From assembly GCA_008923285.1 (NCBI GenBank), contig WBSG01000008.1, forward strand, positions 1-64,000: a stretch of 64,000 nt of DNA, given 5' to 3'. The notes beneath the pieces were generated by a model that was not told the origin of the DNA, did no database searches, and worked only from the letters and a program-made list of their open reading frames with translations. The translations under genes and the position numbers were made by a program. Positions 1 to 10,176 of this stretch are shown here, piece after piece (positions within the stretch are counted from its first letter, which is position 1; every line of letters starts with the position of its first letter). The DNA comes from Betaproteobacteria bacterium SCN2 (GTDB lineage Bacteria > Pseudomonadota > Gammaproteobacteria > Burkholderiales > Thiobacillaceae).

Positions 1-3
1 TAC

Positions 4-64
4 GTGGGTCAAATTTGCGTGCAAACTTTTATGTCAGGTGGGTCAGTTTTAAGTGCAAATCAAC
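4..64. repeat. Two direct repeats, probable end of an IS21-type element
   Basis: Two related units beginning GTGGGTCA and ending GTGCAAA lie at 4-26 and 38-60, a 34-base period. Multiple terminal repeats of this GTGGGTCA type are typical of IS21-family ends, just past istB. The element body would lie to the left of the window. The assignment rests on pattern memory and only one end is visible. Confidence 0.45.
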
Positions 65-94
65 AGCTATGAGCTCAAAGGAGAGCAGGTAGCC

Positions 95-886
95 ATGTCA
101 CTGCAGCCTTTGGGTTTGACTGACTATGCTGTTGGATTCTTCAATGCCCATCAGGACGATCCTGCAAAAATTAGGGATTTCTTGAATGATCGCATTGCCA
201 AGACCCGCCAAGTCTTCCGTGCCAAGTTGCATGAAATCACCACCAATGCCCGCACCCTTATTCTCAACCATGAGCAGGAGCAGGTGCAGGAGGTTATTCG
301 GCAAGCCGCAGCCATGCTGCGAAGCTGGGCGAAGCAGAACGCGACGCCGCGTCCCCTCAACGCTCACGTTCAAGAAAGCCTAATGGGCCAACTTGTTAGA
401 GCGCATGTTGCCACTATCCGGGCCACAGTCCGTCGTGAAGGTGAGTGGTCCAACCTGAGCTACTCGCACCATCTGGGTTTCGGCGCCAGGAGGCTTGCTG
501 TATTGTCCTTGGGCAAGACCGTGGAAGGTTTCTCGGAACTGTGCAAGACCATGGCTGGCAACCCCGACTATGAAGAGGCCCAAGACCTCATCAACCAGGC
601 CGAGCGTATCCTGCTTGCCGCATATGAGGAATTGCTGCGCAAGGTCCAGATCATGGGCCAAACCTCCTTCCGTGATGCCTTGAAGCTGGATTCTGCGCTC
701 TGGCTTAAGTGTGATGCCGAATGGGGGCGCGGACCGGGTTACCGTGACCGGGTAACCGGTCACAACGAGGAATGGTTCATGGCGGAGCCCCGGCAAGAGT
801 TGGAAAAGGAGCTTTTGGCGCTTATCGAGCGCGAATGGGGGGCGGCACTTGATAAGCTAACTTCACTGTTCGAGCCAGAAGAATGA
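95..886 (+). CDS. Hypothetical protein, 263 aa
   Basis: I do not recognise this protein. It is soluble, mostly helical by composition, has no signal peptide or membrane segment, and carries Glu-rich helices near its C-terminus. The ATG at 95 is preferred because AAAGGAG lies at 77-83. An in-frame GTG at 53 would start inside the repeat that looks like an insertion-sequence end. It stands alone, 264 bases before the AbiE pair and on the same strand, in the lower-GC part of the window. It may be accessory cargo of the defence island, but nothing in the sequence shows a function. Confidence 0.65.
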   Translation: MSLQPLGLTDYAVGFFNAHQDDPAKIRDFLNDRIAKTRQVFRAKLHEITTNARTLILNHEQEQVQEVIRQAAAMLRSWAKQNATPRPLNAHVQESLMGQLVRAHVATIRATVRREGEWSNLSYSHHLGFGARRLAVLSLGKTVEGFSELCKTMAGNPDYEEAQDLINQAERILLAAYEELLRKVQIMGQTSFRDALKLDSALWLKCDAEWGRGPGYRDRVTGHNEEWFMAEPRQELEKELLALIEREWGAALDKLTSLFEPEE

Positions 887-1150
887 CAATCAGGCTAGTC
901 TTAGTAGGCTTCCGACACCAAATGTCGACGTAACGTCGACGTAAGATCTAGCGAAATCGCCCTTAAAAGCTTATTGCATCCTCCGCACCCAATTCACCTC
1001 GCGAACACGATGCCAGGTATACGGGGTGCATCGTACATTAGCTTGAAGACACATTTGGTTTAACAAGATGCCAATTTATATACTAATGGTATACAAAAAC
1101 AAGCAAACTTAAACTTGCACTTGGTTTACATTTGTGCGAATTTATTAACT
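887..1150. other. Intergenic region before abiEi with short repeats
   Basis: No gene is seen. GTCGACGTAA occurs twice, at 924-933 and 935-944, an 11-base tandem period. The stretch 1060-1150 is AT-rich, as expected for a promoter region. Confidence 0.5.
1079..1093. promoter_or_regulatory. Candidate AbiEi operator (inverted repeat)
   Basis: TATAC at 1079-1083 and GTATA at 1089-1093 form a dyad with a 5-base spacer, about 58 bases before the AbiEi start. AbiEi antitoxins are known to repress their own promoter by binding inverted repeats, so this is a reasonable operator candidate. The assignment is inference from position. Confidence 0.35.
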
Positions 1151-2026
1151 ATGGAGCAACAAAAACAGGGAAAGTTAAACCAACTACAACGCCTTCTACC
1201 GGAAGGTCTCGTTGTCGATGCTGCTTGGCTTGAGCGCCATAGTTACTCTGGCGCCCTGCGGAAGCGCTATGTTTCTGCTGGCTGGCTTGAGCAGGTTACA
1301 AGAGGCGTTTATCGGCGGCCACCTGGTGAGCTAGATATTTTGGGGGGCGCGACAGAGAAGGTGCAATGGCAGACAATCGTGATTTCCCTCCAGACTCTTC
1401 TACAGCGACCCGTAGCAGTCGGGGGGCGCACAGCATTGGAGTTTCAAGGTTTTGCTCACTATCTATCCAGTGGCGGGTTCCACGAAATCCACCTATACGG
1501 TGACGCACCACTCCCGCGGTGGGTATTCAAGCTCCCGCTAGACAGCCGGTTTCTCTACCACAATGCGAACCGCCTGTTTAAGAGCCGTGCCATCGGGCAA
1601 AGCAACAGCGACTTGGAATGGCTCCCGTCAAATCGTGAGAATGCCAACCTAGAGGAAAGGGGTCTTCGCCGCGAATTCTGGGGCCATTGGAAGTGGCCTC
1701 TAACCCTCTCGACTCCGGAGAGGGCCATCCTGGAGCTTCTGGATGAGGTTCCACAAAACGAAACATTCCATCAGGCAGACGTACTCATGGAGGGGCTGCG
1801 GACCCTCAGCCCCAAACGCCTGCAGTCATTGTTGACGGACTGCCGCAGCGTCAAGGTCAAGCGACTATTCTTTTGGTTTGCCGAGCGCCACAAGCATACG
1901 TGGTTGAACCGCCTAGACCCGACCAGCATCGATTTCGGAAAAGGCAAGCGCGTGCTGGTTCGCGGCGGGAAACTCGACCGCAAATACTTGATTACCGTGC
2001 CGGAGAATCTCGATGCCGGTGGATGA
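1151..2026 (+). CDS. abiEi: AbiEi-type antitoxin / transcriptional autorepressor
   Basis: This is the antitoxin of a type IV toxin-antitoxin pair of the AbiE abortive-infection family, 291 aa. The N-terminal ~70 residues look like the AbiEi winged-helix region: a LPEGLVV-like segment followed by the RKRYVSAGWLEQVTRGVY element that leads into the first strand pair. Family members bind their own promoter and counteract the toxin without forming a stable complex. The ATG at 1151 gives the usual N-terminus; an upstream TTG at 1115 would add 12 residues and has no better ribosome site. The reading frame overlaps the next gene by 14 bases, so the two are translationally coupled, as is typical of AbiE loci. 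Confidence 0.8.
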   Translation: MEQQKQGKLNQLQRLLPEGLVVDAAWLERHSYSGALRKRYVSAGWLEQVTRGVYRRPPGELDILGGATEKVQWQTIVISLQTLLQRPVAVGGRTALEFQGFAHYLSSGGFHEIHLYGDAPLPRWVFKLPLDSRFLYHNANRLFKSRAIGQSNSDLEWLPSNRENANLEERGLRREFWGHWKWPLTLSTPERAILELLDEVPQNETFHQADVLMEGLRTLSPKRLQSLLTDCRSVKVKRLFFWFAERHKHTWLNRLDPTSIDFGKGKRVLVRGGKLDRKYLITVPENLDAGG

Positions 2027-2969
2027 ACTCTACCACCGCCAAGTCGCCTTATTGGTTCAGACAATCCCGCTAGTTGCGGAAGAGCGGTGTTTCGCCTTGA
2101 AAGGGGGCACGGCCATCAATCTCTTCATCCGCGACATGCCGCGCTTATCAGTCGACATTGACCTTACCTACTTGCCGATAGCGGGTCGCGCAGAATCGCT
2201 AAACGAAGTCGATGCTGCGATGAAGCGTATCGCTGAGCGGATTGAATCAGGCATACCAAGTGCTCGTACCGCTTTGAGCAAGCTAGATCGCGAGGACTGC
2301 GTCAGCAAGGTGATAGTTCGGGCGAACGGCGTACAGATCAAGTTGGAAGTAACCCCGGTTACCCGCGGTTGTGTCTATGAGCCAGAAACAAAGTCGGTCT
2401 CGCCTGTCGTGGAAGGGGAATTTGGCTATGCCGAAATTCAGGTCGTTTCCTTCCCCGATCTGTACGCCGGCAAGATTGTCGCCGCTCTTGATCGCCAGCA
2501 CCCTCGCGACCTGTTTGATGTAAGAGACTTGCTGGCCAACGAAGGAATTGATGAAGACCTGCGCAGGGCATTTATAGTCTACCTAATTAGCCACAATAGA
2601 CCCATGGTCGAGGTGTTAAATCCGACACGGCATGATCTCACCAAAGAGTTTGAAAGGGGCTTCAGCGGCATGACTGAGCAAACAGTCAGCCTTGATGATC
2701 TTGTGCTGGCAAGGGAAAACTTGATCGCGTCCATTGTCGGTGGCATGCCCGACACCCACCGCCAATTCTTGCTTTCGTTTAAGAGTGGCGCCCCAGATTG
2801 GGAGTTGCTTGGCATACCCAACTTAGAAAAACTCCCAGCCGTTCGCTGGAAAATGGATAACCTTGCGCGAATGGACCAGAAAAAGCGCAGAGAGCTTCTT
2901 GAGAAGCTCCAGAAAGTCCTGCGAGATGAAAGCAACCAACTAAAAAACTCGAAAGAGATCAATAAATGA
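2013..2969 (+). CDS. abiEii: AbiEii-type nucleotidyltransferase toxin
   Basis: This 318-aa protein is the toxin partner of the preceding AbiEi, a DNA polymerase beta-like nucleotidyltransferase. The four family motifs can be seen: KGGTAINL at residues 30-37, RLSVDIDL at 44-51 with the metal-binding D48 and D50, the QIKLEV strand near 107-112, and AGKIVAALDRQHPRDLFD at about 151-168 with the conserved Lys and Asp. All catalytic residues are present, so the toxin should be active. Its C-terminus is Lys-rich. AbiE systems block phage multiplication by bacteriostatic growth arrest; studied relatives transfer nucleotides to tRNA. Confidence 0.87.
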   Translation: MPVDELYHRQVALLVQTIPLVAEERCFALKGGTAINLFIRDMPRLSVDIDLTYLPIAGRAESLNEVDAAMKRIAERIESGIPSARTALSKLDREDCVSKVIVRANGVQIKLEVTPVTRGCVYEPETKSVSPVVEGEFGYAEIQVVSFPDLYAGKIVAALDRQHPRDLFDVRDLLANEGIDEDLRRAFIVYLISHNRPMVEVLNPTRHDLTKEFERGFSGMTEQTVSLDDLVLARENLIASIVGGMPDTHRQFLLSFKSGAPDWELLGIPNLEKLPAVRWKMDNLARMDQKKRRELLEKLQKVLRDESNQLKNSKEINK

Positions 2970-3049
2970 TCAATAAAAAAGTAGTAAGCGTCGAACGATG
3001 AAACGATCTTGCTGGGTGCGCTGGAACAACGCATTACATAGTATCGAAA

Positions 3050-3074
3050 TGCTGAAAATTCATAAATTTCGGCA
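3050..3074. promoter_or_regulatory. Imperfect dyad upstream of the methyltransferase
   Basis: TGCTGAAA at 3050-3057 and TTTCGGCA at 3067-3074 form an inverted repeat with 7 of 8 matches and a 9-base spacer. It sits about 50 bases before the methyltransferase start, where an operator or promoter element would be expected. No controller protein gene is seen next to it. Confidence 0.3.
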
Positions 3075-3124
3075 TGCAAATCTACCAATCAGGGTGCATT
3101 TCTGGTCGTCGCCAATAGGAAAAT

Positions 3125-4177
3125 ATGAGTCTTCGCTCAGGTATACTGTTTTGCAATAAATCAGATATATCTGACGCAACCCAATTGCAAAAAAACATGC
3201 TCAGAAATGCAGTCGAGGACAAAGTTACGTCCACAATCACCAGCCCATTTCTCGGAAGACCTCCGGCAAACGTCGCTTATGCTACTCAACGCGGTCGAAT
3301 GCTGTTTGGCAAATCCGATCAATTGCTCGCAGACGGTTCGTTGTCGCGGTTCGAAGGAAAAGTAAACCTGATTTTTACCTCGCCGCCTTTTCCGCTAAAT
3401 CGAAAAAAGCGTTACGGCAACGAGACTGGGGACACTTATATTCGCTGGCTCTGTGCTTACGGCCCCCTGTTCAAAAAGATGCTGGCGCCGGATGGCTCAA
3501 TCGTTATAGAGATGGGAAACTCGTGGGAGCCTGGCATGCCCGTAATGTCAACACTCGCTCTGCGCGCGTTGTTAGAGTTTCAGTCGTTGAACAATCTACA
3601 TCTTTGCCAAGAGTTCATCTGGCAAAACCCGGCCAAACTACCGTCCCCAGCCCAATGGGTGAATGTCGAAAGAATTCGTGTCAAGGACAGCTTCACAAGG
3701 TTGTGGTGGATGTCCCCCAACCGGAAACCAAAAGCAAACAATCAGCGCGTCCTGCATGAATATAGCAAGGCAATGAAGGATCTCTTGAAGAAGGGTAGCT
3801 ACAACTCGGGGAAAAGGCCATCTGAACATGAGATCAGCGAGACTGCCTTTCTGCGAGACAATGGTGGAGCCATCCCATCGAACGTGCTGACTTTTGCAAA
3901 CACACACAGCTCCGACGCTTATCAAATCTATTGCCGAGAAAACAAGATTCAACCACACCCCGCACGCATGCCAAGCGAACTAGCGAAGTTCTTCATCAAG
4001 TTCTTAACAGAACCCGACGACATTGTTCTTGACCCTTTTGGGGGAAGCAACACGACGGGGGCCACGGCTGAAGAGCTTGATCGTTTCTGGATAAGCATTG
4101 AAGCCTCTGATGATTATATTAGTGGGTCTCGTGGCCGCTTTGGAAACCGAATAACTTACGATATGCACTCTCAGTAA
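3125..4177 (+). CDS. Site-specific DNA amino-methyltransferase, beta class (probably m4C)
   Basis: This 350-aa protein is a beta-class DNA methyltransferase. The catalytic motif IV reads TSPPF at residues 85-89 and comes before the AdoMet-binding motif I, DPFGGSNTT, at about 303-311. That is the order of the beta group. SPPF/SPPY at motif IV is more common in cytosine-N4 than in adenine-N6 enzymes. It should protect host DNA by modifying one recognition sequence. It is the first gene of a co-directional four-gene set with a GHKL ATPase, an SF2 helicase and a nuclease-like protein. A short terminator-like hairpin separates it from the other three, so it may be expressed more strongly or earlier. 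Confidence 0.85.
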   Translation: MSLRSGILFCNKSDISDATQLQKNMLRNAVEDKVTSTITSPFLGRPPANVAYATQRGRMLFGKSDQLLADGSLSRFEGKVNLIFTSPPFPLNRKKRYGNETGDTYIRWLCAYGPLFKKMLAPDGSIVIEMGNSWEPGMPVMSTLALRALLEFQSLNNLHLCQEFIWQNPAKLPSPAQWVNVERIRVKDSFTRLWWMSPNRKPKANNQRVLHEYSKAMKDLLKKGSYNSGKRPSEHEISETAFLRDNGGAIPSNVLTFANTHSSDAYQIYCRENKIQPHPARMPSELAKFFIKFLTEPDDIVLDPFGGSNTTGATAEELDRFWISIEASDDYISGSRGRFGNRITYDMHSQ

Positions 4178-4187
4178 GTACATTTTC

Positions 4188-4211
4188 AACCTGACTTGGC
4201 AGGTTTTCTTT
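4188..4211 (+). terminator. Attenuator-like hairpin between methyltransferase and ATPase genes
   Basis: AACCTG at 4188-4193 pairs with CAGGTT at 4200-4205 around a 6-base loop and is followed by a T-rich stretch. It is a short, weak intrinsic terminator in the 54-base gap, so partial read-through into the ATPase gene is likely. Confidence 0.5.
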
Positions 4212-4231
4212 TCAATTAGGGGGAAAAGTGG

Positions 4232-5836
4232 ATGACAAATGAATTTGAAGCTGAGCTGAGTGTTGGTACAAGAGCAATAGATGCGTATAGCCGCCTGAGC
4301 TATACGATGTGGTTTGCACTAGCTGAGTTTGTTGACAATTCGACTCAGTCGCGTCTCAACTATGAAAATCTTATTGATGAAGTCCTGGCGTCAGAAGGAA
4401 GGCCGCTTACTGTTTCAATCGTACACAACCGGCAGACAAAGGAAATCATAATTGAGGATAACTCCATCGGGATGACGAAGGACGACCTGGTAGCCGCCTT
4501 GCGCATTGCAAACCCTACCGCAGATAGCAAGGGGCGCTCCAAGTACGGTATGGGCATGAAAACCGCGGCGTGCTGGATAGGCAGGAAGTGGGCTGTGACT
4601 ACCTGCGAGTGGGGCAGTGGCGAGGAATGGACAGCAACGGTTGATGTGGATGCGATTGTGAACCATGACGCCAAGGTTCCTCTGACAATGCGCAACGTTG
4701 ACAAGTCGGATCACTATACCCGAATTACCATCAGCGACTTACGCCGCGTGATCCAAACGCGCTCAGAAGAGACCATCAAGACTTATCTTGGCTCGATGTA
4801 CATGTTCGATCTTCGCCCAGATGACGCTGGGCAAGTAGCCTTAAAGCTTACCTACAATGGAGATGAAATAACCCCGCCTCAAGAGAGCGAATGGGATACT
4901 GACCCATCAGGCAAAATCATGAAGCGCGATTTGTCGGAATTTACGATCGACGGAAAGACTATCCGGGGCTGGATTGGCGTCCTACGCAAGGGTGGGCGGA
5001 AGTTCGGGGGGTTCTCACTTTTTCAGAACAAGAGGCAAATTCAAGGATTCCCCAATGCGTGGAAGCCTAGGCCAATATTTGGTGGCGTCGACGATGAAGG
5101 TGCAAACAACTTGGTGGCACAGCGATTGACCGGCGTCCTGCTACTTGATGGCTTCACCGTTTCACACACTAAAGATGCCGTTCTATATGAAGGTGAGGAG
5201 GAGGATGCTATCGAGAAATTCCTTGTGGCGGAGACAAAGGCATATGCGGACTATGCCAAGAGTCGCCGCGGCTCTGGTGGCAGGCAGAAGTGGTCAAGGG
5301 ACCAGGTACGCGACCTAGTTAAGAGCATGAAGGATGAGTTTACTAGTTCGGAAATTAAGGACGCGCTGAATAATGCAGCTTTGCCACCGCCGGAAGCTCT
5401 TGCTGCAAATAATCTGCAGCAACTTAAATCTCTTACCCCAGAGGACGAGATCGATCGCCTTGAGATTTTGCCCGACCTCTCAGTAGTCATCTCTCTGAGA
5501 GAAACCAGCGAATGGGAGCCACACGTGACTTTTGTTCCAGGATCTGACCCGGGCGTTCTCCATGTAATCATCAATGGCCTGCATCCCTATTATCAAACGC
5601 TTGAAGCAAAAGACTCGATTAATGAGTGCGTCCAGCAATACATATTTGATGCGGTTGCCGAGTTCAAGGCCACTAAACTCATCTCGCGTGTGAATCCAGA
5701 TAGTGTTCGTAGAATAAAGCACGACCTATTGCGCGCCCGCGCTACCCAGATGGACAACGCCGATGCAGAAGTGCGCGCGCAGGCCGAGGCCGACCTATTT
5801 GGAGGAAAGGTCGATAGCGCTGCGAACTCAGACTAG
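4232..5836 (+). CDS. MORC/MutL-like GHKL ATPase of a restriction-type system
   Basis: This 534-aa protein has an N-terminal GHKL (Hsp90/MutL/histidine-kinase) ATP-binding fold. The N box is AEFVDNSTQS, with E32 and N36. The G1 box is DNSIGM at 76-81. The G2 lid is KYGMGMK at 104-110, followed by the helix TAACWIGRKW. The first Gly of the usual DxGxG is Ser here. The middle part looks like the S5-type transducer domain seen in MORC and MutL proteins; the C-terminal ~200 residues are helical and unrecognised. Bacterial MORC-like ATPases linked to methylases, helicases and nucleases are known from comparative genomics of restriction systems. A good ribosome site, AGGGGGAAA, precedes the start. 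It probably acts as an ATP-driven clamp or loader on DNA. Confidence 0.8.
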   Translation: MTNEFEAELSVGTRAIDAYSRLSYTMWFALAEFVDNSTQSRLNYENLIDEVLASEGRPLTVSIVHNRQTKEIIIEDNSIGMTKDDLVAALRIANPTADSKGRSKYGMGMKTAACWIGRKWAVTTCEWGSGEEWTATVDVDAIVNHDAKVPLTMRNVDKSDHYTRITISDLRRVIQTRSEETIKTYLGSMYMFDLRPDDAGQVALKLTYNGDEITPPQESEWDTDPSGKIMKRDLSEFTIDGKTIRGWIGVLRKGGRKFGGFSLFQNKRQIQGFPNAWKPRPIFGGVDDEGANNLVAQRLTGVLLLDGFTVSHTKDAVLYEGEEEDAIEKFLVAETKAYADYAKSRRGSGGRQKWSRDQVRDLVKSMKDEFTSSEIKDALNNAALPPPEALAANNLQQLKSLTPEDEIDRLEILPDLSVVISLRETSEWEPHVTFVPGSDPGVLHVIINGLHPYYQTLEAKDSINECVQQYIFDAVAEFKATKLISRVNPDSVRRIKHDLLRARATQMDNADAEVRAQAEADLFGGKVDSAANSD

Positions 5837-5844
5837 GGGGCAAC

Positions 5845-6999
5845 TTGCCAAAATTAACACCCCGAGGATGGCAAATTGACGCCCTAACAAAGTGGGATAA
5901 GGCTGGCCATCGGGGAATCGTGAGTGTGGTAACAGGGGGCGGCAAAACTGTCTTTGCTTTGTCATGCATTGATCACATCCGACCGATTGCCACGTTGATA
6001 ATCGTCCCTACATCTGCTTTGTTGGAGCAGTGGTGGGAGGAGGCGGCCAGCTATTTCGACCTCGACCTCGATGAGATCAATATCGTTACTGGTAGCCTGA
6101 GATTTCGCTTGGGGGCCATAAACATTGCCGTGCTCAATACGGCTGCCAAATTGGCGGAAAAAATCCAGGGGCATAAGTGCTTTCTCATCGTTGATGAATG
6201 CCACAAAGCCGCATCCGAGCATTTTCGTTCAGCCTTGCAAATAAATACCTTCGCTTCGCTTGGCCTGTCGGCAACACCAGAGCGCCCGTATGACGAGGGG
6301 CTGCAAGAAATACTAATACCGGCACTCGGTCCAGTCATATTCACATACGACTATGCGGATGCACTGCGCGATGGCGTGATCATTCCATTTGAGCTTAAAA
6401 ATATTGTGTTTGAACTTGAGGAAGATCGCCAGACTGAATATGACAAACTAAGTAAGGCAATCGCACGGTCTATTAGCCGAAATGGCCCGGAGTCTGACGA
6501 GACAATTGCATTATTTTTGAAGCGAGCGCGTGTCCTTAATCTTAGCCTGAATCGCATTCGTTTAGCTCTAAAGCTCGTAGCTGCGAACCGCGGTAAGCGT
6601 ACGCTAATTTTTCATGAGGACATCGAAGCATGCGATCTAATCCATTCCATTCTTGCGGAGAATGGGGTTAAGAGTGGCGTGTATCACTCGAAGATGCATC
6701 TGCGTGCTAGGGCGGCCATGCTTGGCCAGTACCGTAGGGGGGAAATTGATGTGCTTGTCACATGCCGAGCACTGGATGAAGGTTTCAATGTGCCTGAGAC
6801 TGAAGTAGGTATCATTGCAGCGAGTACAGCCACTCGGCGCCAAAGGATTCAGCGCTTGGGACGGGTTGTCCGGCCAGCTAAGGGCAAGCAGGTTGCTTCT
6901 ATATATACCCTCGTTGCCACCGGCCCCGAAATCGACCGGTTAAAAGAAGAGGAAGAGCGCTTGGACAGGGTTGCGACCGTCACATGGAGCCGAGCATGA
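5845..6999 (+). CDS. SF2 DEAD/DEAH-type helicase of the defence module
   Basis: This compact 384-aa superfamily II helicase has little beyond the two RecA-like domains. A Q-motif-like LTPRGWQIDAL is at 4-14, Walker A VTGGGKT at 29-35, DECH at 117-120 and SATPE at 142-146. Motif IV is TLIFHEDIE, motif V region VLVTCRALDEGFNVP and motif VI QRLGRVVRP at about 336-344. The domain style is that of type I/III restriction translocases and XPB/RecG-like enzymes. All ATPase motifs are intact. The start is taken as TTG at 5845, directly after a run of five G at 5836-5840. The previous gene ends at 5836 and the next overlaps by four bases, so the last three genes form one translational unit. Confidence 0.87.
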   Translation: MPKLTPRGWQIDALTKWDKAGHRGIVSVVTGGGKTVFALSCIDHIRPIATLIIVPTSALLEQWWEEAASYFDLDLDEINIVTGSLRFRLGAINIAVLNTAAKLAEKIQGHKCFLIVDECHKAASEHFRSALQINTFASLGLSATPERPYDEGLQEILIPALGPVIFTYDYADALRDGVIIPFELKNIVFELEEDRQTEYDKLSKAIARSISRNGPESDETIALFLKRARVLNLSLNRIRLALKLVAANRGKRTLIFHEDIEACDLIHSILAENGVKSGVYHSKMHLRARAAMLGQYRRGEIDVLVTCRALDEGFNVPETEVGIIAASTATRRQRIQRLGRVVRPAKGKQVASIYTLVATGPEIDRLKEEEERLDRVATVTWSRA

Positions 7000-7781
7000 G
7001 AAAAGTACTTGCTGGTAATTGTCAAAACGAAAACATCTTTAATCTCATTGACCCCACCCAGTTTGTTGAAGCTGACTTTGAGGCTGAAGTCATCAAGGCG
7101 TTAACTTGCTTGCAACCGGATTATATGTGTGGAGTATTCGCCGGTTCTTTTGTCTTGGAAGGCGAAAGGAGAATGGCTGATCTGGCGCTAATTCACAAGA
7201 GCCTCTCTCATTGGTTCGTTGTCGAAGTTGAACTTGCCGGACACTCGTTAGAACATCATGTCCTGCCTCAAGTCCGGTGCTTTCGGTATGGTGAACCGGA
7301 ATCATCGTGCGTCACGAGCCTGGTTCGAGCATTTAGCGAACTCCAGCCAGCCGAAGCGGAATCACTGCTGCGATATGTACCACGCTATGTGGCTGTTGTA
7401 GGGAATATGCCAAACCCAGACTGGACTGCGGCACTGCGCGCTGTTGATGTACAACACCTGACGGTATCCATCTACCATGACCAGAGTGGTCGCCCAGCAT
7501 ATGAAGTTGAGGGTCGCCTTACGGTCAGGATCGAAAGCCTTGGTTTCGCTCGCTACTCGGCGATTGACAACTGCTTACGCATTCCAAAAGGCAGTGGCCT
7601 GCCAGTTGGCGATATACAGATCGTCGATCAATTTGGTAATCTGGGAGAATGGACGGTTCAAGAAAATGCTGGCGTCCTTTGGATACGCAAGGCGCGTGGG
7701 CCAGCGCTGATTCAGCACGATAGCTATGTGCAGCTTATCAGAAGCTTCGACGGCCAGATCTCTATTCGGCCATCCTGCTAG
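6996..7781 (+). CDS. PD-(D/E)XK-like putative nuclease of the defence module
   Basis: This 261-aa protein has no family I can name with certainty. Residues 28-98 show a PD-(D/E)XK-like arrangement: an N-terminal helix with E31, a strand ending MADLALI with D62, then the strand WFVVEVEL with E77 and E79, followed by a conserved-looking HSLEHHVLPQ helix. The third catalytic position is Glu instead of Lys, which also occurs in some active members of this fold. The rest is beta-rich. An ATGA overlap with the helicase and GGAG at 6987-6990 favour ATG 6996; ATG 6984 is possible. In context it is the natural candidate for the DNA-cutting subunit, but this is inference. Confidence 0.62.
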   Translation: MRKVLAGNCQNENIFNLIDPTQFVEADFEAEVIKALTCLQPDYMCGVFAGSFVLEGERRMADLALIHKSLSHWFVVEVELAGHSLEHHVLPQVRCFRYGEPESSCVTSLVRAFSELQPAEAESLLRYVPRYVAVVGNMPNPDWTAALRAVDVQHLTVSIYHDQSGRPAYEVEGRLTVRIESLGFARYSAIDNCLRIPKGSGLPVGDIQIVDQFGNLGEWTVQENAGVLWIRKARGPALIQHDSYVQLIRSFDGQISIRPSC

Positions 7782-7983
7782 ACAAGCATTAGATTAGGTG
7801 CGGCGTGTCATTATCCAAACATAACACTTTGATGGTATTTATGTTGGTATCTCATAAAAACATCAATCAAATACCTCGCCTTTAAAGGTAGCGATGGAAT
7901 AATTCGGTAGTGCCCCTGGCCACCACCCCCCTCCAGTTTCAGCAAGACCGCCGCCGTTTTCGCAGGCGCACAACACTCCCGTC
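7782..7983. other. Boundary between accessory island and core chromosome
   Basis: No gene, tRNA or clear terminator is seen. Base composition changes from AT-rich (to about 7890) to GC-rich, marking the right edge of the accessory island. No attachment-site repeat could be found by eye. Confidence 0.45.
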
Positions 7984-10176
7984 TTATCCGGCTTTGGCCA
8001 CGTCCTCGCTGACGCCCGCCTGTTCCTGCAGCAGCCTGGTCGCGTCCTGCGCGGGCATCGGCATGCCGAACAGATAGCCCTGTACTTCGCTGCACTGCAG
8101 GATGCGCAGCCGTTCGAGCTGGGCGGCGCTTTCCACGCCTTCGGCGATGACGTTGAGATTGAGGTTGCGCGCCATGCCGACGATGGCATTGGCGATGGAC
8201 ATGCCGTCGAGTTGGGAGTCCTTGACGAAGGCGCGGTCGATCTTGAGGGTGTGGATGGGAAAGCGGCTGAGATATTTCAGCGAACTGTACCCGGTGCCGA
8301 AATCGTCGACTGCCAGGCAGACGCCCGCTTCGGCCAGCTGGGTGAGCTTGGCGGCATTGCTTTCGACGTCGCGCATCAGCACGTTTTCGGTGATCTCGAG
8401 TTCAAGGGCGCCGGGTTCGAGCTGGTTGGCTTCCAGCGCGCGCAGCACGCTGCCGACGAAGTCCGCGGTTTCCAGCTGGCGCGGCGAGATGTTGACCGAA
8501 ATCCGTACCGGCGGCAGCCCGCTCTTGCGCCAGAAGGCCTGTTGCGCAGCGGCCTGGCGCAGGATCCATTCGCCCATTGGCACCACCACGCCGGTTTCCT
8601 CGGCCAGCGGAATGAACGCATCCGGCAGGACGATGCCGCGTTCGGGATGCCACCAGCGGATCAGCGCCTCGAACCCCTTGATGGCGCCGGTCATCGTATC
8701 CACCTGCGGCTGGTAGAACAGCACGAATTCATCATTGGCCAGCGCGCGGCGCAGGTCGGATTCCATCTGGATGCGCCCGGAGAAGGCTTCCTGCATGGCC
8801 GGCTGCCAGTGCTGGATACGGCAGCCGCCCTGCGACTTGGCCTGGTACATGGCGATTTCCGTCTGCCGGATGAGGGTATCGGCAACCGCGCCGTCCTCGG
8901 GCGCGAAGCTCGCACCGATGCTGGCGGTAACGTAGAGGTCGTGTCCCTTGATGCGCAGCGGCGAGTTCAGCGCCTCGATCAGCTTGTGGCCGACCACGGT
9001 CGCTTCCAGCCTGGAAGTGGTGTCCGGCAGCAGCACGGCGAACTCGTCTCCGCCGAGGCGCGCGAGGATGTCGTCGTCGGCCAGGCACTGGCGCAGCCGG
9101 GTGGCGATGTGGATGAGCAGTTCGTCGCCCACCCCGTGGCCCAGCGAATCGTTGACCACCCTGAAGTTGTCGAGGTCAAGGATCATCACCGACAGCGCCT
9201 GCTGCTTGCGCTTGCCATAGACCAGCGCGCGGCCGAGGTGGTCGCGGAACTTGGCGCGATTGGGCAGGCCGGTCAGCAGGTCATGGAAGGTCTGGTAGTG
9301 CACGGTTTCCTCGGCCTGCTTGCGGTCGCTGATGTCCTTGACCACGCCGTAGGTGCCGACAAAGCGGTTTTCGAAACGCGTCTCGGGAAACTCGTACATG
9401 CCGGTGGCGGTGACTTCCACGGTGCGATAGCGCCCGTTCATCACGCGCGGTCGCTGCTGCCCGTCCTTGCACTTGAGGCGCAGTTCGACATTGCGCGAGG
9501 CGCGCGCATCGGCGCGGCGCTCGTTGAAGACGTGCTCGGCGCGGAACAAGTCCTCCTCGAAAATGATTTCGCTGAAATGGCAGCCGACGAGTTCGCTGCG
9601 CGTAAAGCCGAGCAGGCTTTCCACGCGATCGTTGACGAAGGTGAAGCGGCCTTCGCCGTCCAGGGTGTAGATGAAATCGGGCGAGGTGTTGACCAGGAAA
9701 CGGTGCCATTTTTCCGACTGCTGCAGGCGCTGCTGAATCAGGCTGTTTTCCCTTTCCAGTTGCTGGTTGCTGATCGTGTTGCCGATGCGCTTCAGCAGTT
9801 CCTCGGGCTTGTAGGGTTTGCGGATGAAATCGGCCGCGCCCTGACGCAATGCAATGACGGCGCTATCGATGGCGTTGTCGCCGGAGACCACGATCACCGG
9901 TGTCGCCACGCCGCGTTTCGACAATTCGGCCAGCACGTCGACGCCGCCGATGCCCGGCATGTTGAGATCGAGCAGGATCACGTCGAATTGCATCCGATCC
10001 ACCGCATCGAGGGCCTGGCGTCCGTTTCCTGCGGCGACCGCCTCGTAGTCTTGCGCCTTGATCAGCCGTACCAGGCTGTCCTGGATCAGCGGATCGTCAT
10101 CCACGATGAGGATGCGCGGTCGTCGGCTCAGGTTGCTAACGCCGGGTTTGCTGTCAGCGGATGTGGGTTGCATCAT
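7984..10176 (-). CDS. Response regulator with PAS, GGDEF and EAL domains (c-di-GMP enzyme)
   Basis: This 730-aa cytoplasmic protein has four domains in order. The receiver (about 20-135) has phospho-acceptor D70 in VILLDLNMPG. PAS/PAC follows (about 158-280), then GGDEF (about 300-455, intact GGDEF) and EAL (about 475-720, with EALIRW, NISPRQ, DDFGTGYSS, KIDR and EGVES). Both catalytic domains keep their signature residues, so it could make or degrade c-di-GMP. The inhibitory RxxD site before GGDEF is missing (ADDD instead). It starts 9 bases after the end of the histidine kinase gene, which is probably its cognate sensor. ATG 10173 is an equally possible start with better spacing to GGAGAG. 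Confidence 0.9.
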   Translation of the reverse strand: MMQPTSADSKPGVSNLSRRPRILIVDDDPLIQDSLVRLIKAQDYEAVAAGNGRQALDAVDRMQFDVILLDLNMPGIGGVDVLAELSKRGVATPVIVVSGDNAIDSAVIALRQGAADFIRKPYKPEELLKRIGNTISNQQLERENSLIQQRLQQSEKWHRFLVNTSPDFIYTLDGEGRFTFVNDRVESLLGFTRSELVGCHFSEIIFEEDLFRAEHVFNERRADARASRNVELRLKCKDGQQRPRVMNGRYRTVEVTATGMYEFPETRFENRFVGTYGVVKDISDRKQAEETVHYQTFHDLLTGLPNRAKFRDHLGRALVYGKRKQQALSVMILDLDNFRVVNDSLGHGVGDELLIHIATRLRQCLADDDILARLGGDEFAVLLPDTTSRLEATVVGHKLIEALNSPLRIKGHDLYVTASIGASFAPEDGAVADTLIRQTEIAMYQAKSQGGCRIQHWQPAMQEAFSGRIQMESDLRRALANDEFVLFYQPQVDTMTGAIKGFEALIRWWHPERGIVLPDAFIPLAEETGVVVPMGEWILRQAAAQQAFWRKSGLPPVRISVNISPRQLETADFVGSVLRALEANQLEPGALELEITENVLMRDVESNAAKLTQLAEAGVCLAVDDFGTGYSSLKYLSRFPIHTLKIDRAFVKDSQLDGMSIANAIVGMARNLNLNVIAEGVESAAQLERLRILQCSEVQGYLFGMPMPAQDATRLLQEQAGVSEDVAKAG

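Follow-up and report, generated by a model that had tools for sequence, protein, structure and literature searches.

A conserved, mobile gene cassette with a MORC-type ATPase and a candidate endonuclease, probably an ATP-dependent restriction-modification system

Four genes encoding a DNA methyltransferase (MTase), a MORC-type GHKL ATPase, an SF2 helicase and a candidate endonuclease were found to form a conserved and mobile cassette, the recurrence of which goes beyond chance because the same set is present in genomes of about ten phyla. It is likely that this cassette constitutes a complete, laterally mobile, ATP-dependent restriction-modification (R-M) system. This reading is supported by direct observations, i.e., the gene set, its conservation, the pattern of active-site residues and the existence of variants that lack the helicase or carry an exchanged MTase. 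From these and from the predicted folds we infer the type and the site of methylation, DNA cleavage, complex formation and the clamp step.

The window, i.e., the whole analysed stretch of 64,000 nucleotides, is the beginning of contig C8 in a 2.65-Mb genome, and its base 1 is the end of the contig. As had been described in the initial annotation, four co-directional genes are located at positions 3125–7781, all of them being intact open reading frames (ORFs) on the forward strand. The MTase gene and the GHKL gene are separated by 54 nt and the GHKL gene and the helicase gene by 8 nt, and the helicase gene overlaps with the fourth ORF. The features of the region are:

1–65, no strand assigned: repeated element end, IS-like, also found at either end of contig C12 and in contig C17 of the same genome
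1115–2969, forward strand: AbiEi/AbiEii type IV toxin-antitoxin pair, with Pfam and PADLOC matches; a neighbour in the island, outside the cassette
3125–4177, forward strand: DNA methyltransferase, 350 aa, start at 3125 or 3197
4232–5836, forward strand: MORC-family GHKL-S5 ATPase, 534 aa, the C-terminal third having no assigned fold
5845–6999, forward strand: compact SF2 helicase, 384 aa, TTG start, helicase domains only
6996–7781, forward strand: candidate restriction endonuclease with a predicted PD-(D/E)XK-type core and a predicted C-terminal B3-like domain, in an ORF that opens at 6984

The G+C content amounts to approximately 0.50–0.53 from position 1 to about 7,980 and to 0.58–0.70 in the remainder, except for the last 2 kb with 0.51 (overall about 0.50 compared to 0.65). 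The region up to approximately 7,980 therefore looks like a foreign island interrupted by the contig end. The insertion-sequence end noticed earlier beside the cassette is plausible, because positions 1–65 recur at the ends of C12 and once in C17; such an element would break the assembly and set the left limit of the readable island. The AbiE pair reported next to the cassette was borne out. For the ORF at 53–886 (277 aa), also located in the island, no credible match was obtained in Pfam, PADLOC or NCBIfam.

When 84,980 species genomes were scanned with a MORC alignment, 80 loci were obtained, and the MORC subfamily of the window comprises 31 distinct loci, including the window and two genomes found by searches. 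In a class-wide search, one relative was seen to carry all four genes, arranged as MTase, helicase, fourth protein, MORC. When the fourth protein was used as query across the phylum, another complete set came up, located beside an ORF that reads as integrase-like. In every subfamily locus with a readable neighbourhood (29 of 29), the fourth gene is present beside the MORC gene or within the cassette, but it is so in none of the 51 outgroup MORC loci. All four genes occur together in 19 loci, as counted from locus tables (the MORC gene is split in L020, and the helicase gene is interrupted in L036); the expected co-occurrence of the set in other genomes was thereby confirmed. The hosts belong to about ten phyla, namely Pseudomonadota, Acidobacteriota, Verrucomicrobiota, Actinomycetota, Chloroflexota, Spirochaetota, Bacteroidota, Ignavibacteriota and candidate phyla. 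In the MORC tree, the window falls into a fully supported clade of ten rows with the gene order MTase-MORC-helicase-nuclease, the exceptions being L020 with another order and L012 without MTase, and its sister group mostly shows the order MTase-helicase-nuclease-MORC. Host phyla are mixed in this tree, showing that the cassette moves laterally. Among viral contigs, no relative of the MORC protein or the nuclease was found at the sensitivity used. At L026:4960–5952, an extra MTaX1-HNH protein is encoded between the MTase and the helicase.

The MTase contains an N6_N4_Mtase domain (Pfam, E 6e-35), and its motif order, with SPPF at residue 86 and DPFGGSN at residue 303, is that of the beta class, in agreement with its earlier assignment as a beta-class DNA amino-methyltransferase. 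Residues 50–340 align to M.PvuII (E 1e-73), the closest solved relative, and the match spans the full catalytic and target-recognition region. M.PvuII modifies the site CAGCTG at N4 of cytosine (m4C), and judged from this alignment the mark placed by the cassette MTase on host sites is probably N4-methylcytosine as well. Site counts did not show CAGCTG to be avoided in the cassettes, and its absence from the window island (1–7984) is not significant. CTCGAG was considered as an alternative recognition site, since no six-base palindrome is avoided more strongly in one of the clades (0 vs. 8.5), but it is not claimed, as it is not outstanding across all patterns and a control. It is also absent from the window island (1–7984) and seldom present in cassettes whose MTase is PvuII-type, and its count in the host chromosome is low as well (14 vs. 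31). A terminator-like hairpin between the MTase and the MORC gene (4188–4205) was likewise discarded, as orthologues are devoid of it and hairpin counts are near chance.

The second protein was assigned to the MORC/MutL type of GHKL ATPases in the initial annotation, and it can be specified as MORC-type. It contains a HATPase_c_3 domain (Pfam, E 3e-27), its residues from about 10 to 348 match MORC2/3/4 and SMCHD1, and residues N36, D76, G80, G106, G108 and T163 are conserved. The motif GFSLFQNKRQI at residue 260 corresponds to the MORC S5 motif GhXhhpXXRhl as defined by Iyer, Abhiman and Aravind (PMC2292703), one h position being Q in the window and hydrophobic in relatives such as G361. An AlphaFold2 model (mean pLDDT 83.7) superimposes on SMCHD1 and MORC2/3/4 with Z scores of 24–25 over about 290 residues, compared to 20–22 for Hsp90 and topoisomerase VI. 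By motif and predicted fold, the protein is a true MORC. A second and larger GHKL protein (756 aa) is encoded at L029:3499–5769, upstream of the circularly permuted MTase of a helicase-less cassette.

For the fourth protein, the start at 6996 is probably used rather than 6984, because an ATGA common to the helicase stop and the start of the fourth gene is conserved in the window and most of the sampled clade-A orthologues, the others having GTGA. Direct sequence searches against PDB, Pfam, PADLOC, NCBIfam, PHROGs and plasmids gave no match. An AlphaFold2 model was built from 31 sequences (mean pLDDT 94.8), and its residues from about 20 to 178 resemble EndoMS/NucS, XisH, Can2/Card1, PaqCI, FokI, McrC and the XPB partner Bax1 with Z scores of 7–9. 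The predicted fold is an alpha-beta-beta-beta-alpha-beta core with the acidic set E25, D62, E77 and E79. Throughout the alignment, L035 excepted, these four residues as well as H88 and Q92 do not vary, and ExE in place of the canonical ExK, which is unusual, is found in all copies but the degenerate one of L035. BamHI is a precedent for ExE. The D...ExE nuclease-like core proposed initially is thus confirmed as invariant, but a second, B3-like domain had been missed. Among the structural matches listed for residues 176–261, B3 domains alone appear (VAL1, LEC2, TEM1, NGA1, ARF1), with VAL1 at Z 8.2 and an rmsd of 2.5 over 83 residues, although B3 Z scores of 7–8 are near what may be obtained with a common arrangement. 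Foldseek ranked a B3 domain first (LEC2, probability 1.00, but E 0.015) and BfiI, a B3-containing restriction enzyme, seventh; a sequence-profile match of residues 176–261 to B3 was not obtained. The protein is a predicted candidate for a sequence-specific endonuclease, and the modelled B3-like domain suggests that the nuclease itself recognizes the sequence. In two fringe relatives, L008:853–1854 and L009:1150–2073, the nuclease-like domain is fused to DUF5655 or RAMA and not to a B3-like domain, from which it appears that it is combined with alternative, probably DNA-reading modules. In the locus L035:5314–10509, the MTase is permuted, the nuclease has lost its active site except for D62, and a PIN-domain gene adjoins MORC on the other side, possibly as a replacement of the nuclease.

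The compact DECH helicase recognized at the outset was confirmed as a protein of 384 aa consisting only of ResIII (3e-19) and Helicase_C (1e-16) domains, with the motifs TGGGKT, DECH, SATP and QRIQRLGRV. Its start codon in orthologues is TTG, GTG or ATG at the same place. It is encoded in 21 of 28 testable loci and is absent from a six-row subclade supported in the MORC tree (L025, L028, L029, L032, L034, L037); in helicase-less loci, the upstream ORFs that were scanned contained no other helicase. The basic activity cannot depend on the helicase, because a whole subclade is devoid of it. This points to an accessory helicase, or to the loss or replacement of its function in the helicase-less clade, and the core is therefore the nuclease-MORC pair, usually accompanied by an exchangeable MTase.

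In the proposed mechanism, the PvuII-type MTase would mark the host sites, probably by N4-methylcytosine, the B3-like domain of the fourth protein would bind the unmodified target and its PD-(D/E)XE core would cut. The MORC ATPase may act as a dimeric, ATP-gated clamp to hold or loop the DNA and may join the nuclease to control or extend its action, and the SF2 helicase, where present, would translocate from the site. This corresponds to the division of labour in the CglI/NgoAVII systems, with a PD-(D/E)XE nuclease and a MORC protein as clamp or looping factor. In its minimal form the cassette might be a three-component R-M system of MTase, PD-(D/E)XE-B3 nuclease and MORC, in which the MORC clamp alone provides the ATP step between recognition and cutting without a helicase. 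We put forward this latter proposal only tentatively; if true, it would define an ATP-dependent class outside of Types I–IV and offer a simple bacterial model for the action of MORC proteins on DNA.

Different from classical cutting, the modification might arm the system as in Pbe, so that the MORC-nuclease pair works only in the methylated host and inhibits phage replication. The helicase indeed has its closest match in PADLOC in PbeA (7e-77), of which only the helicase part (residues 250–644) aligns, and in NCBIfam in dnd_restrict_1 (TIGR04095) and XPB. Moreover, PbeABCD needs the modification for its activity without cleavage being seen, and many pbeAC loci are located near MTases (PMC6459918). 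However, DndCDEA-PbeABCD depends on phosphorothioation and not on methylation as is the case here, and its partners, i.e., the PLD domain on the helicase, the CxC ABC-ATPase PbeC and the DndE-like PbeD (PMC10853773), were not detected in the cassette by Pfam and PADLOC searches. As the active site of the nuclease is strictly conserved in addition, we regard arming by modification as unlikely.

It is also improbable that the cassette acts by abortive infection, with MORC sensing a phage DNA structure and unleashing the nuclease on all DNA, and the MTase being a partial protector or a passenger. Such a mode would fit to VcSduA, a fusion of GHKL ATPase and PD-(D/E)XK nuclease that provides defence on its own (PMC12137116), to the loci L012, L028 and L038 without adjacent MTase, and to the observation that MTase divergence barely tracks that of MORC (Spearman 0.09). 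Yet, an MTase lies beside the cassette genes in 27 of 30 testable loci, 24 being PvuII-type and three circularly permuted (SPPY at residue 257 or 258 and an N-terminal part that matches motif I), meaning that it was replaced and not lost in these three, and the predicted B3-like domain would imply reading of the sequence. For the Variovorax cassette L012, a relative of the PvuII-type MTase with 49% identity is encoded elsewhere on the same 134-kb contig (L094:5418–6605); a search for an MTase relative at L028 and L038 found none. Identities between clades are mostly 55–67%, down to 46%, for the MTase, about 35% for MORC and roughly 10–30% for the nuclease, and the weak tracking of MORC and nuclease by the MTase is as expected if MTases are exchanged. 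For the MTase and the B3-like domain, the signal of co-variation (partial rank correlation 0.28, Mantel p 0.012; nuclease core 0.14) is only suggestive. Finally, a role of the fourth protein as non-cutting recognition subunit with cleavage by another protein, for which ExE rather than ExK and the extra nuclease genes beside some copies (HNH-MTaX1 in L026, PIN in L035) might speak, is very improbable given that its six active-site positions, all acidic or polar, do not vary and that the scanned upstream ORFs of the helicase-less loci L025 and L037 encode no other nuclease domain.

Returning to the R-M reading, the unusual ExE, the modest B3 Z scores, the three loci without adjacent MTase and the unavoided CAGCTG weigh against it. 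Operons of MORC, SF2 helicase, methylase and nuclease with restriction endonuclease (RE) fold were predicted in 2008, and DNA looping was proposed for them (Iyer, Abhiman, Aravind; PMC2292703). The window fits to these mobile operons with its true MORC ATPase adjoining a DNA methylase, a Rad25-like SF2 helicase and a nuclease of predicted RE fold, and the clamp-and-translocate hypothesis of the initial annotation is close to the looping mechanism (PMC2292703). It differs in the separate candidate ExE nuclease with a predicted B3-like domain, the PvuII-type MTase and the existence of a helicase-less subclade; in the Rad25 class of 2008 the nuclease is commonly, though not obligatorily, fused to the helicase, whereas the helicase of 384 aa found here is devoid of a nuclease. 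The statement that the set matches no named system holds insofar as PADLOC contains no such system, but the general kind had been predicted. For this variant, neither a name nor an experiment was found in PADLOC 2.0, NCBIfam or open-access papers, a prior listing elsewhere being possible, and in the open-access literature no biochemical study of a prokaryotic MORC protein in such an operon was found.

The compactness and recurrence of the set, its candidate nuclease with a candidate sequence-reading domain and its helicase-less versions make the role of MORC directly testable in a laboratory strain, and this MORC is a bacterial relative of the MORC gene-silencing proteins of animals and plants. 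Furthermore, the fourth protein represents a candidate nuclease family that Pfam, NCBIfam, PHROGs and PADLOC do not contain; with its addition, programs that search for defence genes would be able to recognize the system.

Other systems share single components. The GHKL ATPase is distantly related to the MutL-like MzaB (E 4e-6) of MZA (MzaABCDE, with Z1 and others), but the MzaB model gives 25 bits, below its cut-off of 850, the cassette has neither a Z1 helicase nor an m5C MTase, and relatives on the MZA branch, e.g., L003 with an m5C MTase, a GHKL protein and a Z1-like helicase, are devoid of the fourth protein. VcSduA (GHKL-Shedu) likewise pairs a GHKL ATPase with a PD-(D/E)XK nuclease, in one fused polypeptide with a DUF4263 nuclease, whereas the window encodes them separately together with MTase and helicase (PMC12137116). 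The PvuII R-M system has the related MTase, but no R.PvuII-like nuclease was identified in the cassette. CglI/NgoAVII consist of an MTase, an R-protein in which a PLD nuclease is combined with a site-reading B3-like domain, and an SF2 helicase ATPase; cutting depends on this ATPase, which is a probable translocase (PMC4267653, PMC5737866). The separate MTase, the nuclease with a B3-like domain, predicted in the case of the cassette, and the SF2 helicase ATPase are common to both; CglI/NgoAVII differ by the PLD nuclease, the Z1-containing helicase, the m5C MTase and three genes without MORC, and a Pfam search of the cassette gave no match to PLD or Z1. The set is best read as being built like CglI/NgoAVII with a MORC protein and a different nuclease fold, its general kind known as a prediction since 2008 and the variant itself being unnamed in the libraries and papers searched.
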